A stretch of 64,000 nt of DNA from Halosegnis marinus. GTDB taxonomy: Archaea; Halobacteriota; Halobacteria; Halobacteriales; Haloarculaceae. Shown piece after piece: positions 4,044 through 43,392 of this stretch (positions within the stretch are counted from its first letter, which is position 1; the number at the start of each line of letters is the position of its first letter). The position numbers and the translations under genes are program-made. The stretch lies in assembly GCF_029338355.1 (NCBI RefSeq), contig NZ_CP119802.1, positions 434,001 through 498,000 on the forward strand. Reading direction: 5' to 3'. Below the pieces are notes generated by a model that was not told the origin of the DNA, ran no database searches, and saw nothing but the letters and a program-made list of their open reading frames with translations.

Positions 4044-4678
4044 CACTCGATCACCTCGCGCTTCTCGAAGGCGCGCTGCGGGACGCGAGCCTCGCTCGTG
4101 GCGCGGAGCGCGTTGAACGTCGCCTTCGCGAAGTTGACCGTCGTGCGGGTGTTGCCCGACGAGCGGGTCCAGATGTCCTCGATGCCGGCGAGGTCGAGGA
4201 TGTTACGGACGGTCTCCCCGCCCGCGAGCCCCAGCCCGCGCGGCGCGGGACGGAGTTCGACCTCGACGGAGCCGGCCTTGCCGGTGGTGCGCAGCGCGAC
4301 CGTGTGGGCGCGCCCGCAGCCACACTCCCACGAGCCGCAGCCGCGGGAGACGTCGATGATGTTGAGCTTCGCGATCTCGATTGCCTTCTGGATGGCGCCG
4401 CCGACCTGGTCGTCGCGACCCTCGGCGTAGCCGACGAAGCCGTCGCGGTTGCCGACGGCGACGACACACCGGAACTTCACCCGGCGGCCGGAGTCGGTCA
4501 TGCGCTGGACCATGTTGATGTCCAGGACCTCGTCGTCCATGTCCGGGAGGAGCTGGTCGACGATCTGCGGCTCCTTGAGCGGCAGCCCGCTGTTCAGGGC
4601 CGTCCGCATGTCGGTTATCTCGCCCTCTACGACCTTTCGTCCGAGCCGCGTGCGCGGCTCCCAGCCTCCGTTACTCAT
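4043..4678 (-). CDS. rps5: Ribosomal protein uS5
   Basis: Small-subunit protein uS5 (211 residues), involved in decoding fidelity and mRNA helicase activity at the entry channel. It has the double-stranded RNA-binding fold ([20 protein letters not shown]) and the conserved [24 protein letters not shown] segment. The latter carries three cysteines typical of the archaeal form. It overlaps rpl18 by a few bases at its start and rpl30 at its stop. Confidence 0.98.
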
Positions 4679-36444: not shown

Positions 36445-36770
36445 AGTTCGGCCGCCCGGTCCGCCGCTGCCGCCTCGTCCTCGCACCGCTCGCGGAGCGT
36501 CCCCGACTCGGTCTCCACCACCAGCGTCGCGACCGACGACCGGAGCCACAGCGCCAGCCCGACGCCCGACGCCAGGAACAGCAGGACGCCGAGCGGGAAC
36601 ACCGTCGGGAACGGGACGCCCGCGGCGACGGCGCCCGTCGGGACGAGGACGCCGAGCAACAGCGAGGCGAGGCCGCCGACGAGCGGGCGGACGTCGCGGC
36701 CGGTCTCGACGCGGACCGACCGCACCGTCTCGCGCGCGACCGTCTCGCCGCCGACCGTCACCTCAGTCAT
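36438..36770 (-). CDS. Small two-helix membrane protein
   Basis: 110 residues, starting MTEVTVGGETVARETVRSVR. Two hydrophobic stretches (about 28-52 and 56-76) follow a short strand-rich segment, and the tail (TLVVETESGTLRERCEDEAA) could pack back on the membrane. The pattern slightly resembles the DUF6232 family, but I cannot confirm that. It follows the potassium-channel gene on the same strand with an 8-nt overlap. Confidence 0.7.
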   Translation of the reverse strand: MTEVTVGGETVARETVRSVRVETGRDVRPLVGGLASLLLGVLVPTGAVAAGVPFPTVFPLGVLLFLASGVGLALWLRSSVATLVVETESGTLRERCEDEAAAADRAAELQ

Positions 36771-37968
36771 TCTCCAGCCGTTCCTCGTCGGGCACGTCGA
36801 GTATCATCTCGGCGATGGACTCCATGTCGCCCGTGCCGAGCGCGCTCTGGACGAGCAGGTGGCCGCCGATGACGGCCGGGGAGATGACGGTGTCGGCGCC
36901 CGCCCGGCGGAGCTTCTTGGCGTTCTCCCGCTCCGTGGCGGCGGCGACGATGTTTATCTCGGGGTTGAGTTCCCGCGCCGTGAGCACGGCGAGCGCGTCC
37001 TGTGCGTCGTCGTCGGTCGCGGCGACGAGCGCGCGGGCCCGCTCGATGCCGACGCGGAGCAGCGGCTCCTCGTCCGACGGGTCCGCGGTTATCACCTCGA
37101 TGTCGCGCTCGCGCATCTGTTGGGCCCGCTCGGGCGAGCGCGTGACGACGACGTACTGCGGCCCCCCGGCCGTCTCCGCCAGTTCTTCGATGACCGGTTC
37201 CGTGAGGTCGGAGACCCCGACCACGATGACGTGGTCCTCCAGCAGGTCGAGTGTCGAGTCGTTCATGGTTCCGAGCGCTTGTGCGAGCCGCGCCTCGATG
37301 GCCGGCGTCAGCAGCGTCCCCAGCGCCACACCGAAGGAGGCGACGCCGAGCAGCAGGACCGACATGGTGAACAGCCGCGCCTGCGCCGAGGCCGGGGCCG
37401 GGTAGACGTCGCCGTACCCCACCGTCGAGGAGGTGACGAGCGTGAAGTAGAACGCGTCCGTCACCGTGGCGACGTTCGTGAACTCCTCGCGGAGCACGTA
37501 CGTCCCGATGGTCCCGTACGCCTGCGTGCCGATGATGGCCGCCAGCGCGGCGAGCTGGGTCGTCGAGAGGTCGAAGTCGCGGTCGAACACACCGCGGTTG
37601 AGGAGCACCGTCGGCAGCGACAGCACCGACAGCACCACCAGCGGGTACGAGTAGGCGCTGGTCTGGGCGAGGCCCTGCAGGGCCGTGACGGGCAACAGCA
37701 GGACCGTGAGGTACCACGCCCCGCGGAGCCGTCGCCGGAGGCCGTAGGCGGCCCCGAGCATCAGGAAGCCGGTGAGCGCGCCGGTGAAGCCCGCGGTCCG
37801 CTGGACGAGTTCGGGGACGAAGGGCGCGAGCAGTCCGGAGATGTCCGTCGTTCCGATGTTGACGATGCCGGTGACGACCGACAGCAGCGCGACGGCGGCC
37901 GGGAGCCACATCGCCGCGCGGACTCCGAGCACGCGCGCGAGCCGACGCCGTCGCCCGTCCTCGCTCAT
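36763..37968 (-). CDS. Two-pore-helix potassium channel with TrkA-N domain
   Basis: 401 residues. After several N-terminal membrane helices (about 20-155), an ion-channel unit has the selectivity filter STVGYGDVYPAP (TVGYGD at 182-187) between two helices. A TrkA-N/RCK domain follows from about 240 (DHVIVVGVSDLTEPVIEEL). The glycine-rich nucleotide loop is less canonical here (VGVSDL rather than GxGxxG). Predicted K+ channel gated by ligand binding to the RCK domain. MSEDGRRRRLARVLG is taken as start. Confidence 0.9.
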   Translation of the reverse strand: MSEDGRRRRLARVLGVRAAMWLPAAVALLSVVTGIVNIGTTDISGLLAPFVPELVQRTAGFTGALTGFLMLGAAYGLRRRLRGAWYLTVLLLPVTALQGLAQTSAYSYPLVVLSVLSLPTVLLNRGVFDRDFDLSTTQLAALAAIIGTQAYGTIGTYVLREEFTNVATVTDAFYFTLVTSSTVGYGDVYPAPASAQARLFTMSVLLLGVASFGVALGTLLTPAIEARLAQALGTMNDSTLDLLEDHVIVVGVSDLTEPVIEELAETAGGPQYVVVTRSPERAQQMRERDIEVITADPSDEEPLLRVGIERARALVAATDDDAQDALAVLTARELNPEINIVAAATERENAKKLRRAGADTVISPAVIGGHLLVQSALGTGDMESIAEMILDVPDEERLEND

Positions 37969-38041
37969 ACGCGGAACCGACCGTCGGGCCCGGCATAAGC
38001 CGTCCGGTAGCTGTATATCCTCCCCGCCTGTTGCCCGGACA

Positions 38042-39253
38042 ATGGCACCCCTTCCCGTCGAGATACTCCAGGGGATATACCTCGGCGTTCTCACCGGCAT
38101 CCTCCCGGCACTCGTCGCGTGGGCGATGGGATTCGCGTTCAAGTACGTCACCGGGGTTTCCATCCCCGGGTTCGGTGTGGTCGTGATGGCGCTCGCGCTC
38201 GCGGGCGTCAACGGCGGCCTGCTCGCGCTCACCGACGAGAACATCCTCGACTCCGCGACCGGTCCCGTCATCGTCACCGCCATCGTCGTCGTGTTGATGC
38301 TGTCGCTGTACGCCCACGCGAAGGGCGACGCGATGGGCGCGGCGTTCCCGAAACGGCTCTCGCTGTCGGCGCTGCGCGAGCGCACCCTCTCGGCGGACGT
38401 GGTCGAGCGCGTCGGCGGGCGCGGTCGGGCCCGCGTCACCGTCGTCGGCGAGGTCGCCGACATGGAGGGGTACCCGCCGCTCACCGAGGAGATACGCAAG
38501 GGCATCAAGGAGGGCGAGTGGCGCTTCCCGGCGGAACTCCCGGTCGGCGAACTCGAAACCCGGTTCGCGGAGCGGCTCCGCACCGAGTTCGACCTGACCG
38601 ACGTGTCCGTGGCCCTCGACGAGCGCGCGAACGCGACGGTCGCGGCCGCGCCGCCGCTGTCGGGGCTCTCGAAGCGCATCCCCGCCGGGAAGCGCGCCGT
38701 CTCAGTCGAGACGCTCGTCCCGACGGGGCTCGCGCGCGGCGACCTCGTGACCGTCACGGCCGGCGAGGCGACCGTCGAGGGGACGGTCGTGAGCGCGCGC
38801 TCCGGGGCGGGGTCGGAGAAGCCGGCCGCCGCCACCGACGGCGGTGAGGACGCGACCGAGCCGGCACCCGCACCCGCCACGACGACCGGCGGGGAGGGGC
38901 GGGTGACGGTGGCCGTCGCGCGGGCGGACGCTCCCGTGCTCCTCGGGACCGACCGCGCTCGCGTCGTCGTCCGGGCACGCGGCACGCACCGCGAGTACGA
39001 ACTCGTCTCGCTGCTGCGGCGCGCCGGCAAGCGGTTCAGGAAGGTCACCGTCGGCGAGGACGGCGCGCTGACGGGCCGAACCCTCGGCGACGCCTCCCTG
39101 CGCGAGGAGTACGGCGTCGCGGTGCTCGCGGTACGCCGACCCGACGGCTGGACGCTCGCGCCGCGGGGCGACACGACGCTGACCGCGGGCGACGAGCTGT
39201 TCACGGTCGGGTCGCGGGACGCGCTCGACCGTCTCGCGGGGGTGACGGCGTGA
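38042..39253 (+). CDS. Membrane protein with TrkA-C (RCK C) domains, paralogue 1
   Basis: 403 residues. Three hydrophobic segments lie at about 7-30, 36-60 and 70-92. A cytoplasmic region contains GEVADMEGYPPLTEEIRKGI and a C-terminal TrkA-C-type module (VTVGEDGALTGRTLGDASLR, then GDTTLTAGDELFTVGSRDAL). In haloarchaea such proteins are annotated as potassium transporter TrkA-like. A proline/threonine-rich linker is at about 265-290. The TGA overlaps the GTG start of the next gene, a clear paralogue. Confidence 0.82.
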   Translation: MAPLPVEILQGIYLGVLTGILPALVAWAMGFAFKYVTGVSIPGFGVVVMALALAGVNGGLLALTDENILDSATGPVIVTAIVVVLMLSLYAHAKGDAMGAAFPKRLSLSALRERTLSADVVERVGGRGRARVTVVGEVADMEGYPPLTEEIRKGIKEGEWRFPAELPVGELETRFAERLRTEFDLTDVSVALDERANATVAAAPPLSGLSKRIPAGKRAVSVETLVPTGLARGDLVTVTAGEATVEGTVVSARSGAGSEKPAAATDGGEDATEPAPAPATTTGGEGRVTVAVARADAPVLLGTDRARVVVRARGTHREYELVSLLRRAGKRFRKVTVGEDGALTGRTLGDASLREEYGVAVLAVRRPDGWTLAPRGDTTLTAGDELFTVGSRDALDRLAGVTA

Positions 39254-40416
39254 CCCAAGCCGTCGAGCTGCTGGGACGGGTCGTGGCCAACGCCGTCACC
39301 GTCGCCGGGCTGAGCCTCCTCTCGGGGCTGCTCGCGACCCTCCTCGGCGTCGTCCACCGCTGGTACGCCCGCGCGACGGTTCCCGCGGGGCTGTCCGTCC
39401 TCGTCGGCCTGACTGCGGTCGTTCTCGTGTTGAACGTCGAGTCGGCGCTCGGGACGCTCATCACCGGAGCGACGAACGGTTCGAGCCCCGGAACCGTGTT
39501 CGACACGGGCGTCATCGTCGTGAACACGACCGTTCTCGCGGCGAGCGCCGTCGCCGCCGCGGCCGGGGGTCGCCTCGGCGACCAGCTCGGCGAATCGACG
39601 TTCGCGCTGACGGGGTCCGGCGCGGTGGACGTGGACGTCTCCGCGGTCGTGCAGGCCGTCGGGCGCGTCATCACCGTCGACCTCCCAGAGGAGATCGGCG
39701 ACATCGAGGGGTACGACCCCGTCGCGCCGGGCGTCAAGGAGACGCTCGCGGGCGAGACGCTCGTCTTCCCGCGCCGGCTCACGGTGGACGAGCTCCGCGA
39801 CCGCGTCGCCGCGCGGCTCCGCACCGACTACGGCGTCGGTCGGGTCGACGTCGACGTCGAGGCCGACGGCACCGTCGCGTACCTCGCCGTCGGTTCCCGC
39901 GAGTCCGGAATCGGACCGACGCTTCCCCCGGAGAGCTGTGCGGTCGCGGTGCGCGCGGACCCCGCTCACGCCGCCAGCGCCGGGGACCTCGTACAGGTGT
40001 ACCGGACGGGCGCGGACGGCCCGGAGCGGGTCGCCCTCGCGGAACTGCGCGGGACGGCGGGCGACGTGGCGACGCTGGCGGTCGACACCGCCGACGCGGA
40101 CGCGCTCGCCGCCGAGGAGCGCTACCGGCTGGCGACGCTCCCGGTCGAACCCCGCTCGGACCGCGAGTTCGCGTCGCTGTTGCGCGCGGCCGACGAGACG
40201 ATGGGCGTCGTCACGCTCGCCGAGGGGAGCGACCTCGTCGGCACGCCCGTCGGCGCGGTCGACGCCGCGGTCGTGGCGGTCCGCGGTCACGGCGGACTCG
40301 AACCCATCCCGTCGCGGTCGCGCGTGCTCGCCGCCGGCGACGACCTCTACGTCATCGCCGCGCCGAGCCGGCTTCGGCGGCTCGACGCGGCGGCGGGCGC
40401 GAGCGACAGCGACTAA
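39250..40416 (+). CDS. Membrane protein with TrkA-C domains, paralogue 2
   Basis: 388 residues from a GTG coupled to the previous stop. Three hydrophobic segments at about 8-33, 45-62 and 87-107. The cytoplasmic half parallels the upstream protein (GDIEGYDPVAPGVKETLAG; then VVTLAEGSDLVGTPVGAVDA and SRSRVLAAGDDLYVIAAPS). The pair probably works as a heteromer that senses nucleotide or ion state for K+ flux. No ion-conduction pore is evident in either. Confidence 0.82.
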   Translation: MTQAVELLGRVVANAVTVAGLSLLSGLLATLLGVVHRWYARATVPAGLSVLVGLTAVVLVLNVESALGTLITGATNGSSPGTVFDTGVIVVNTTVLAASAVAAAAGGRLGDQLGESTFALTGSGAVDVDVSAVVQAVGRVITVDLPEEIGDIEGYDPVAPGVKETLAGETLVFPRRLTVDELRDRVAARLRTDYGVGRVDVDVEADGTVAYLAVGSRESGIGPTLPPESCAVAVRADPAHAASAGDLVQVYRTGADGPERVALAELRGTAGDVATLAVDTADADALAAEERYRLATLPVEPRSDREFASLLRAADETMGVVTLAEGSDLVGTPVGAVDAAVVAVRGHGGLEPIPSRSRVLAAGDDLYVIAAPSRLRRLDAAAGASDSD

Positions 40417-41573: not shown

Positions 41574-41807
41574 TTACTCCATCGCGACGTAGGTGTGGGT
41601 GTCCTCGACGCCGTCGAGGTTCCGCACCGTCGTCGCGGCTATCTCGCGCACCTCGGCCGGCGACTCGACCCGGACCTTGGCGATGAGGTCCACGTCGCCG
41701 GCCACGATGTGGACGCTCTCGACGCCCTCGACGGCCGCCACCTCGTCGCGGAGCCGGTCGGCGTCGCCCGTGTGCGCTTTCACCATCACGTAGGCGAGGA
41801 CGCTCAC
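41574..41807 (-). CDS. Stand-alone Lrp/AsnC RAM-domain protein (1)
   Basis: 77 residues consisting only of the ligand-binding RAM domain of Lrp/AsnC proteins (MSVLAYVMVKAHTGDADRLR, then VESVHIVAGDVDLIAKVRVE and TYVAME). There is no helix-turn-helix, so it is not a DNA binder by itself. RAM domains bind amino acids and form rings. Its start overlaps the end of the TrkA-N gene by 4 nt, so it likely modulates that partner. Confidence 0.9.
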   Translation of the reverse strand: MSVLAYVMVKAHTGDADRLRDEVAAVEGVESVHIVAGDVDLIAKVRVESPAEVREIAATTVRNLDGVEDTHTYVAME

Positions 41808-42493
41808 GCCGCATCACCCGCGAGCGCGGCGTGTGCGTGCTCGCCGACGACGATACGGCGCACGTCGGCGAGGCGGTCGAAGTCCACGAGCGCGACCAGC
41901 CGGTCGCCCGTCTCCAGCGAGTGGTCCTCGTCGGGGAGGCCGAACTCCGCGCCCGCCTTGCCGAACGCGAGGAGCCGGCAGTCCGCCGGCAGTTCCAGCT
42001 CGGAGAGGCTGTAGCCGTGCATCGGCGACTCGTCCGTGACGGTGAGTTCGACCACCTGGAGGTGGTGGGCCACGTCGGCGATGGCACGGATGGAGCCGCC
42101 GAGAAGCGCGTTCTTGGCGACGATGGCGCCGAGCCGTTCGGGGTACACCACCTCGTCCACGTCCGTCGCGTACGCCCGGAGGACCTCCTCGTGGGACTCC
42201 GAGGTGGCCCGCAACACGGTCCGGCAGCCGTGCCCCTTGGCTATCATGCAGGCGAGGACGTTCACCTCGAACGACCCCGAGAGCGCCGCGAGGCCGTCGG
42301 CGTCGGCCAGCCCCGCCTCCAGCAGGGTGGCCTCGTCGGAGCCGTCGCCCTCGACCACGTCCACCCCCTCGTCGCGGAGCCGGTCCACCGTCGTCCGGTT
42401 CGGCTCGACGAGCGTCACCGTGTGGCCCTCCTCGCGAACCACCCGGGCGGTCCGCATCCCGACCCGACCAGCACCCACGATAACAAACCTCAT
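41804..42493 (-). CDS. TrkA-type potassium uptake regulator
   Basis: 229 residues: a TrkA-N Rossmann domain with intact dinucleotide motif (VIVGAGRVGMRTARVV, GxGxxG at 7-12; acidic E at the end of strand 2 in LVEPNRT) and a TrkA-C domain from about 145 (VVELTVTDESPMHGYSLSEL). Regulatory subunit that binds NAD(H) or ATP and gates a Trk/Ktr channel. A start at MRFVIVGAG is certain. It is divergent from a second RAM-domain gene 80 bp away. Confidence 0.92.
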   Translation of the reverse strand: MRFVIVGAGRVGMRTARVVREEGHTVTLVEPNRTTVDRLRDEGVDVVEGDGSDEATLLEAGLADADGLAALSGSFEVNVLACMIAKGHGCRTVLRATSESHEEVLRAYATDVDEVVYPERLGAIVAKNALLGGSIRAIADVAHHLQVVELTVTDESPMHGYSLSELELPADCRLLAFGKAGAEFGLPDEDHSLETGDRLVALVDFDRLADVRRIVVGEHAHAALAGDAA

Positions 42494-42573
42494 GGTACGC
42501 CGTACGACGGAGGAGGACAAAGGGCTTACCCCGGCGGGGGAAGGCTTTTCTCCGGGTGCGGCGACTGGTGTGT

Positions 42574-42804
42574 ATGGTGCGAGCATATGTCATGGTCGAT
42601 GCGGGAGCGAGCGACGCGGCGTCGCTGCTCGACGACGTGCTCGCCGTCGCCCACGTGGTCGAGGCCCACATCGTGGCCGGCGAGTACGACGTCATCGCGG
42701 AGGTGGAGGCCGAGGAGGTGAGCGACGTGATGGCGACGGTCGCGACGAACGTCCGCGCCGTCGACGGCGTCGCGGACACGCGAACGTACGTCTGTCTGGA
42801 GTAG
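42574..42804 (+). CDS. Stand-alone Lrp/AsnC RAM-domain protein (2)
   Basis: 76 residues, similar to the RAM protein at 41.6 kb (MVRAYVMVDAGASDAASLLD; HIVAGEYDVIAEVEAEEV; ADTRTYVCLE). Again no DNA-binding domain. It is transcribed away from the TrkA-N gene, with AAGGCTTTTC about 27-36 nt before its ATG as box A. Together the two RAM genes bracket TrkA. Confidence 0.88.
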   Translation: MVRAYVMVDAGASDAASLLDDVLAVAHVVEAHIVAGEYDVIAEVEAEEVSDVMATVATNVRAVDGVADTRTYVCLE

Positions 42805-42846: not shown

Positions 42847-43392
42847 ATGCGCGGAATCGATGACGACGAGGAGGTCGAGCGGGCGCTCCGGTATCTGGTG
42901 GACTCGTTCGAGTCCTCGGGGGACAACCCGAAGCCGGTGATACTGCACAGTACGCGGGTGGGGATGGACCTCTACGACAGGGGGTACGGGACCCGCGTCG
43001 TCGTCTCCGGCTTCCTCCACGACCTGCTGGAGGACACGGCCGTGACCGGCGACGACGTCCGGTCGGCGTTCGGCGCTGACGTCGCGGAAACCGTGGAGGC
43101 CGTCAGTTTCGACGAGGGCATCGACGACTACCTGGAGCGACACTACGACATCTACCGGCGGTGCTTCGAGACGGGGAGGGGCGCGGTCCTCGTCAAGGCC
43201 GCGGACGTGCTGGACAACAGCGAGTACTACGGCCTCGGCGACTCGGCCGAGTTGGGGCGGAACCAGGTCGAGAAGATGACCTACTTCGTCGAGAACTCGG
43301 AGCCGTACATCGGGGACGAGGACATCCATCGGGAACTCGCCGAGGCGCTCCCGACCGTGAGGGAACGGGTGGCCGAGCGGAACGGGAACTGA
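42847..43392 (+). CDS. HD-domain hydrolase, RelA/SpoT (MESH1)-like
   Basis: 181 residues. Metal-site motifs are H34 (VILHSTRVGMD), HD at 58-59 followed by LLEDT, and a later VLVKAADVLDNSEYY. The last matches the KxADxxxN element of RelA/SpoT hydrolase domains. The synthetase domain is absent. Candidate substrates are (p)ppGpp or another nucleotide. It follows the second RAM gene by 42 nt. Canonical stringent signalling is not established in haloarchaea, so substrate is open. Confidence 0.8.
   Translation: MRGIDDDEEVERALRYLVDSFESSGDNPKPVILHSTRVGMDLYDRGYGTRVVVSGFLHDLLEDTAVTGDDVRSAFGADVAETVEAVSFDEGIDDYLERHYDIYRRCFETGRGAVLVKAADVLDNSEYYGLGDSAELGRNQVEKMTYFVENSEPYIGDEDIHRELAEALPTVRERVAERNGN

Follow-up and report, generated by a model that had tools for sequence, protein, structure and literature searches.

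What could join a gene for a TrkA-type RCK protein to two small ligand-binding proteins encoded on either side of it? The question is raised by the genome of Halosegnis marinus (2.81 Mb), in which we analyzed a stretch of 64,000 nucleotides (C1:434001-498000, the window). Here, an orphan single-RCK TrkA gene lies between two genes for stand-alone RAM domains of the Lrp/AsnC type, which we call RAM1 and RAM2 (Table 1). A first-pass annotation of the sequence had placed the three genes in this way, had called both RAM proteins HTH-less, and had noted that they resemble each other, and our analysis agreed on all three points. RAM1 and TrkA share 4 nt (41804-41807), and RAM2 is divergent from TrkA, with an 80-bp gap between the two. 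A longer TrkA reading frame, extending to 42586, is also present; we set the start at the methionine of MRFVI by comparison with relatives. PF01037 was the sole Pfam match of either small protein (57.3 bits at residues 7-77 of 77 in RAM1 and 42.6 bits at residues 12-76 of 76 in RAM2; cutoff, 25), the RAM domain filled nearly all of each, and no HTH was found by Pfam in these chains of 76 to 77 aa. TrkA matched PF02254 (TrkA_N) with 98.8 bits and PF02080 (TrkA_C) with 42 bits, as well as general NAD-binding families more weakly. RAM1 and RAM2 were identical at 39 of 75 residues (52%; E = 3e-20), and they were the only short RAM-only proteins among the seven PF01037 matches of the genome. Four of the other five frames have an N-terminal HTH-like part, as judged by eye, and the fifth, L007, is ambiguous.

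Table 1. Features of the TrkA locus in the H. marinus window (positions are those of the window).
Feature	Coordinates	Strand	Description
RAM1	41574..41807	-	77 aa, GTG start; stand-alone Lrp/AsnC RAM domain without HTH
TrkA	41804..42493	-	229 aa; orphan single-RCK protein (TrkA_N + TrkA_C)
Divergent intergenic region TrkA/RAM2	42494..42573		80 bp, from sequence
RAM2	42574..42804	+	76 aa; stand-alone RAM without HTH, paralog of RAM1

TrkA orthologs (E ≤ 1e-72) were found in 254 of 322 Halobacteria genomes, representing 70 of 80 genera. In a class sample of 59 Halobacteria genomes, where a TrkA of at least 56% identity counted as an ortholog and a RAM match was accepted at E ≤ 1e-6, an orthologous TrkA was present in 47 genomes (a hand count of the listing) and a RAM match in 48; in one of the 47, G034, TrkA lies at a contig end and RAM1 is broken. 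Both were present in 45 genomes, TrkA alone in 2 (G014 and G044), RAM alone in 3 (G001, G007, and G021), and neither in 9 (Fisher p = 8.6e-7, phylogeny ignored). Adjacency was assessed in a larger collection of 263 loci, part of them chosen for missing TrkA, of which 245 had an ortholog; removal of identical TrkA stretches left 216 distinct TrkA loci. RAM1 lies directly downstream of TrkA on the same strand in 203 of these, and 180 have RAM2 no more than 1.5 kb upstream, divergent in 165 and on the same strand in 15. None of the 216 had RAM2 this close to TrkA while lacking RAM1. Among 80 named loci, which are the best 80 of 303 relatives, RAM1 follows TrkA in 75 (L108 being a partial match) and RAM2 is present in 64, once at a distance of 2.3 kb (L121). 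The two sets overlap and were drawn from the best TrkA matches, the wider one from among the matches listed, with distant copies under-represented. The first-pass annotation had suggested conservation of the trio in other genomes as a check and had named RAM genes that do not co-occur with TrkA in relatives as the outcome that would speak against it. We found the genes to co-occur and usually to be adjacent.

Since RAM1 and RAM2 accompany TrkA at so many of the 216 loci, the arrangement is not a chance neighborhood, and we read the trio as a class-wide haloarchaeal sensing module. The differing genes that flank the trio from genome to genome are the only support for a neighborhood without functional meaning, a reading that the conservation of RAM1 across the loci and of TrkA across the genera refutes and to which we assign a negligible probability. 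That the RAM1, RAM2, and TrkA genes form one functional module is, in our judgment, very probable. To look outside Halobacteria, we searched a phylum sample of 60 genomes, 15 of which gave RCK matches with E ≤ 1e-25; of these 15, six belong to the same order (G000 to G005, G001 with only 1.4e-35), and the other nine, related at the phylum level only, reached 5.7e-32 at best, far below the ortholog level.

Several neighboring genes of the window were rejected as parts of the module, as they are rare near the TrkA of relatives: by tblastn (E ≤ 1e-8), the downstream HD-domain gene was found at none of 80 relative loci, the Kch gene at three, and two genes for TrkA_C membrane proteins at two each. 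DUF5813 occurs near the module in 52 of the 80 loci and is a neighbor rather than an operon member, because it lies on the strand opposite to TrkA in 49 of the 52. The HD-domain gene (42847-43392) comes right after RAM2, and its product has a weak RelA/SpoT-like N-terminal similarity. The region 36763-40416 holds the Kch-type channel gene, with TrkA_N, on the reverse strand and two overlapping genes on the forward strand (38042-39253 and 39250-40416) whose products end in TrkA_C. A family of 403-aa three-pass proteins with TrkA_C (HVO_2617) is described among composite genes (PMC5992828); judged by the accessible part of that source, it is like the genes at 38042-40416 by length and architecture only.

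The linkage has exceptions, and they limit what may be said of the coupling between RAM and TrkA, which the annotation had proposed: co-occurrence stands, whereas obligate dependence does not, as 13 of the 216 distinct loci have TrkA without either RAM gene and two lineages have RAM without TrkA. In G001 and G007, the space between the head-to-head genes RAM2 and RAM1 holds no TrkA, and the pair lies next to DUF5813-like, thymidylate-kinase-like, and epimerase-like genes, as near trio loci (by eye). G152 has kept RAM1 together with a second RAM-like gene, 36% identical to RAM1, and no TrkA match was found there at E ≤ 1e-20. In these lineages, therefore, RAM either works independently of this TrkA or has another RCK partner. 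In G152, a gene for a CBS-domain transporter of divalent cations of the MgtE type (L293:1858-2892) lies directly before RAM1, in TrkA's place, and the second RAM-like gene lies beyond it. RAM2 is distant in G041, G032, and G045, where the adjacency of TrkA and RAM1 is still kept. TrkA and RAM are both missing from g11 and g26, from two members of the same genus as H. marinus (G282 and G368), and from G120; for the last-named groups, the absence of RAM was scored with RAM1 as the only query at E ≤ 1e-5, and G125 was left out of this renewed search. Joint absence supports a single module but is weaker evidence than it looks, because clustered genes can vanish in one deletion. A small protein ("fam33"), for which no Pfam match was found, is encoded near TrkA at six RAM-less loci (L060, L066, L082, L098, L175, and L216); it was ruled out as a RAM substitute, being common to 55 of the 59 Halobacteria genomes.

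The junction between TrkA and RAM1 is tight. The RAM1 start codon was located by script at 159 of the 203 junctions, with 44 left unmeasured, and in 149 of the 159, the TrkA stop and this start overlap by at most 4 nt or are at most 3 nt apart, a gap of 1 nt being found in 70 and of 2 nt in 55. One of the outlying junctions measures 60 nt, and nine have meaningless far-upstream starts. The near-zero spacing points to translational coupling of RAM1 with TrkA. On the other side of TrkA, the divergent intergenic region must presumably hold the promoters of both TrkA and RAM2.

About 10 to 25 nt 5′ of the RAM2 start, many relatives carry either TACCACAC or a palindrome with imperfect symmetry, for instance, GTGTGATA-GTG-TACCACAC (examples are L195, L273, and L036). 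On either strand, TACCACAC occurs in 47 of 154 TrkA/RAM2 intergenic regions of relatives versus 0.2 in shuffles, and other words are also over-represented in this region. At least one arm of a loosely defined palindrome is present in 81 of 180 RAM2-upstream regions, and both arms are present in 3. The element also accompanies the detached RAM2 of L156 (start near 4418); it is absent from the TrkA-less loci L150 and L151 and from the H. marinus window, which also lacks the other over-represented words. In four genomes, the loose pattern occurs at two to four places each, the RAM2 place counted in. A regulon was rejected in view of these few places per genome; one place apart from that of RAM2, L304, was inspected and had no obvious link. 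Might the element be a locus-private operator of a regulator? We pose this as a question, with the element as a candidate.

The two RAM proteins appear to have a long common history. Both RAM proteins are encoded at 179 loci, and we built a tree from 46 of these, the RAM proteins of G001, G021, and G152 (leaving out the second RAM-like protein of G152), and five outside sequences, namely, E. coli Lrp as the root, three other PDB RAM sequences, and one Lrp protein of H. marinus. In the rooted tree, RAM1 and RAM2 together formed a clade with a support of 0.94, RAM1 one with 0.82, and RAM2 one with a weak 0.45, and the RAM proteins of G021 fell outside the joint clade. By their sequences, RAM1 and RAM2 are thus an ancient paralogous pair that goes back to an old duplication. 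In the GDxD loop, which we take to participate in ligand binding by the RAM domain, G37, D38, and D40 of RAM1 are invariant in all 202 aligned sequences, and RAM2 has G36 in 179 of 180 and D39 in 180 of 180. At another alignment column, RAM1 has K44 in 182 of 202 and RAM2 has E43 in 180 of 180, a charge contrast that would suit RAM1-RAM2 pairing. The G021 proteins also carry E at this column and, as they fall outside the joint clade, E may be the older state. Most likely, RAM1 and RAM2, lacking DNA-binding domains, would assemble into oligomers, possibly hetero-oligomers, that bind a small metabolite.

The best PDB match of RAM2 was 2e1a, a stand-alone RAM protein of 75 aa (E = 3.1e-7), and 2zbc was matched by both RAM1 and RAM2. 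We take 2e1a to be DM1 of Pyrococcus horikoshii and 2zbc to be STS042 of Sulfolobus tokodaii. Both are RAM domains of about 75 to 80 aa without HTH, like the proteins described here. However, the accessible part of PMC2995911 mentions no RCK neighborhood for them, whereas here two old paralogs flank an RCK gene throughout the class. Stand-alone RAM proteins have been known with an unclear role and with one mixed octamer formed in vitro, the DM1-FL11 heterooctamer of P. horikoshii (PMC2995911). This precedent suggests that the RAM proteins may instead serve transcription by joining mixed oligomers with HTH-bearing Lrp regulators, the TrkA gene being merely co-regulated. The H. marinus genome does encode further Lrp proteins whose N-terminal parts look HTH-like, and RAM proteins outlast TrkA in some lineages. 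Such a role leaves unexplained, however, the class-wide adjacency of RAM and TrkA, the junction of a few nucleotides, and the joint loss of all three genes in several groups, and we regard it as unlikely, if well worth keeping in mind.

As for TrkA itself, its GxGxxG loop is conserved nearly without exception (G7 in 215 of 216 sequences and G9 and G12 in all 216), as is the acidic residue that ends strand 2 (E/D30, 216 of 216). Besides receiving the ligand state of its neighbor, TrkA would also read an adenine nucleotide or NAD(H). Its best solved matches by sequence were the TrkA 4j9u (E = 1.4e-30), TM1088B (3l4b, 4.1e-20), and the KtrA 7zp9 (4e-17), with which it shares the TrkA_N + TrkA_C architecture and the nucleotide loop. 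TrkH-linked TrkA, on the other hand, is a double RCK protein, whereas the TrkA of the module is a single RCK unit and in H. marinus has no TrkH/KtrB membrane partner gene beside it. Both TrkH matches of this genome (C1:429373-432310), about 43 kb from the module, adjoin a different TrkA that has two RCK units. Genes around the 80 loci were called with a simple program of our own, and when the printed starts of their products were inspected by eye, no TrkH-like or other transporter family was seen among the 30 commonest neighbor families. Of the potassium uptake that the annotation had ascribed to this TrkA, the sequence kinship with Trk/Ktr proteins holds, but the TrkH genes of the genome lie beside the other TrkA; a potassium role is suggested by family resemblance only. 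Another single-RCK TrkA of the orphan kind, with 47% identity, is L011 (G000:C1:1596111-1596761); no RAM-only gene adjoins it, the PF01037 matches of the genome lying elsewhere, and its flanking genes are presumably DapA-like and diphthamide-ligase-like (names by eye). Second TrkA copies of 38 to 49% identity occur in 40 of the 59 sampled genomes (hand count).

The lack of a conspicuous TrkH-like family near the 80 loci (by eye) and the position of the TrkH genes in H. marinus would also suit a TrkA that works as a soluble nucleotide-sensing ring and forms, with its RAM partner, a two-input sensor for a target outside transport. The closest solved relatives are, however, Trk/Ktr subunits, with 4j9u foremost, and an RCK subunit can regulate a transporter whose gene is not nearby; we hold a target outside transport to be improbable. 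In the mechanism that we prefer, TrkA would tune a transporter or channel for cations whose gene lies at another place in the genome.

Contact between RAM and TrkA was approached by covariation and by a structure model. Mean-field DCA was run on 202 TrkA-RAM1 pairs (306 columns), 180 TrkA-RAM2 pairs, and 179 RAM1-RAM2 pairs. Inter-protein pairs in the top 50 numbered 14 versus 19.4 expected for TrkA-RAM1 (Meff 46.3), 14 versus 19.3 for TrkA-RAM2 (Meff 50.3), and 18 versus 26.5 for RAM1-RAM2 (Meff 56.5), the alignments being too shallow in each case. The single top pair was inter-protein in all three low-depth runs, and the top inter-protein pairs of both TrkA runs share the hub columns TrkA 98, 185, and 32, which looks phylogenetic. 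For AlphaFold2, we used the natural read-through of L094 (TrkA, the stop read as Gly, and RAM1), with 36 rows, three of them including RAM1. The model, a single 1:1 chain in which homo-oligomers are impossible, had a mean pLDDT of 77.3 and a pTM of 0.52; with only three RAM1 rows, it gave no confident docking of RAM1, and junction residues 219-229 had a pLDDT below 50, so that it weighs little for or against contact. That no contact signal emerged from the shallow DCA or from this read-through model is in keeping with RAM proteins and TrkA that serve the same response (osmotic, K+, or nitrogen balance) and do not touch, co-regulation maintaining the cluster, as is the fact that each part can be absent singly. 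Matched production of TrkA and RAM1 is nevertheless favored by their near-zero spacing and by their adjacency where RAM2 is distant, and we give this parallel arrangement a low, though real, probability.

In the preferred mechanism, RAM1, probably coupled translationally to TrkA, would pass the ligand state of the RAM oligomer on to TrkA. It builds on the observed linkage, the near-zero spacing, the old duplication, the conserved ligand and nucleotide loops, and the joint absences; we infer the translational coupling, the hetero-oligomer, the ligand class, the RAM-TrkA contact, and the transporter target. Taken as a whole, with direct contact included, we advance it tentatively, as a reading that falls somewhat short of an even chance. 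We count in its favor, by analogy, the fusions of RAM with TrkA_C reported from haloarchaea (PMC4236453, PMC8229911). These Trh2-type Lrp proteins likewise join an Lrp RAM-type regulator with an RCK_C domain, and K+/NAD+ sensing has been proposed for them, with the RAM domain of Trh2 considered likely nonfunctional (PMC4236453). As described in the accessible parts of these papers, however, the Trh2 type is an HTH transcription factor in one chain, whereas the module consists of separate genes without HTH and with a full RCK; no member of the trio combines HTH, RAM, and TrkA_C. Haloferax mediterranei has two ligand-binding-only Lrp proteins, WP_004059676.1 and WP_004059678.1, which are like RAM1 and RAM2 in this respect but for which the accessible part of PMC8229911 mentions neither the neighborhood nor an intervening TrkA. 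Their accessions, being two apart, may fit the same trio. In Haloferax mucosum (L124), the trio is present. The annotation had known of no description of the wiring. The idea was anticipated in part by Trh2, which links RAM to TrkA_C within one chain (PMC4236453, PMC8229911), and a description of the trio was not found in the literature searched, mostly without subscription papers. Within that literature, the separate trio is new, and stand-alone RAM proteins and RAM-TrkA_C fusions were already known.

The near-fixed, class-wide RCK neighborhood gives haloarchaeal RAM proteins a concrete and testable partner. Some haloarchaea have genetic tools. An RCK regulator that responded to a metabolite would be important for the balance between salt and metabolism in these organisms, because haloarchaea hold molar potassium (PMC5992828). 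In its most specific form, which we think rather unlikely, a hetero-ring of RAM1 and RAM2 docked on the RCK ring would make a two-input gate, for metabolite and nucleotide, on a cation transporter. If true, this gate would be a post-translational link from metabolite pools to the potassium balance of the salt-in strategy, and it would give stand-alone RAM proteins their first defined job.
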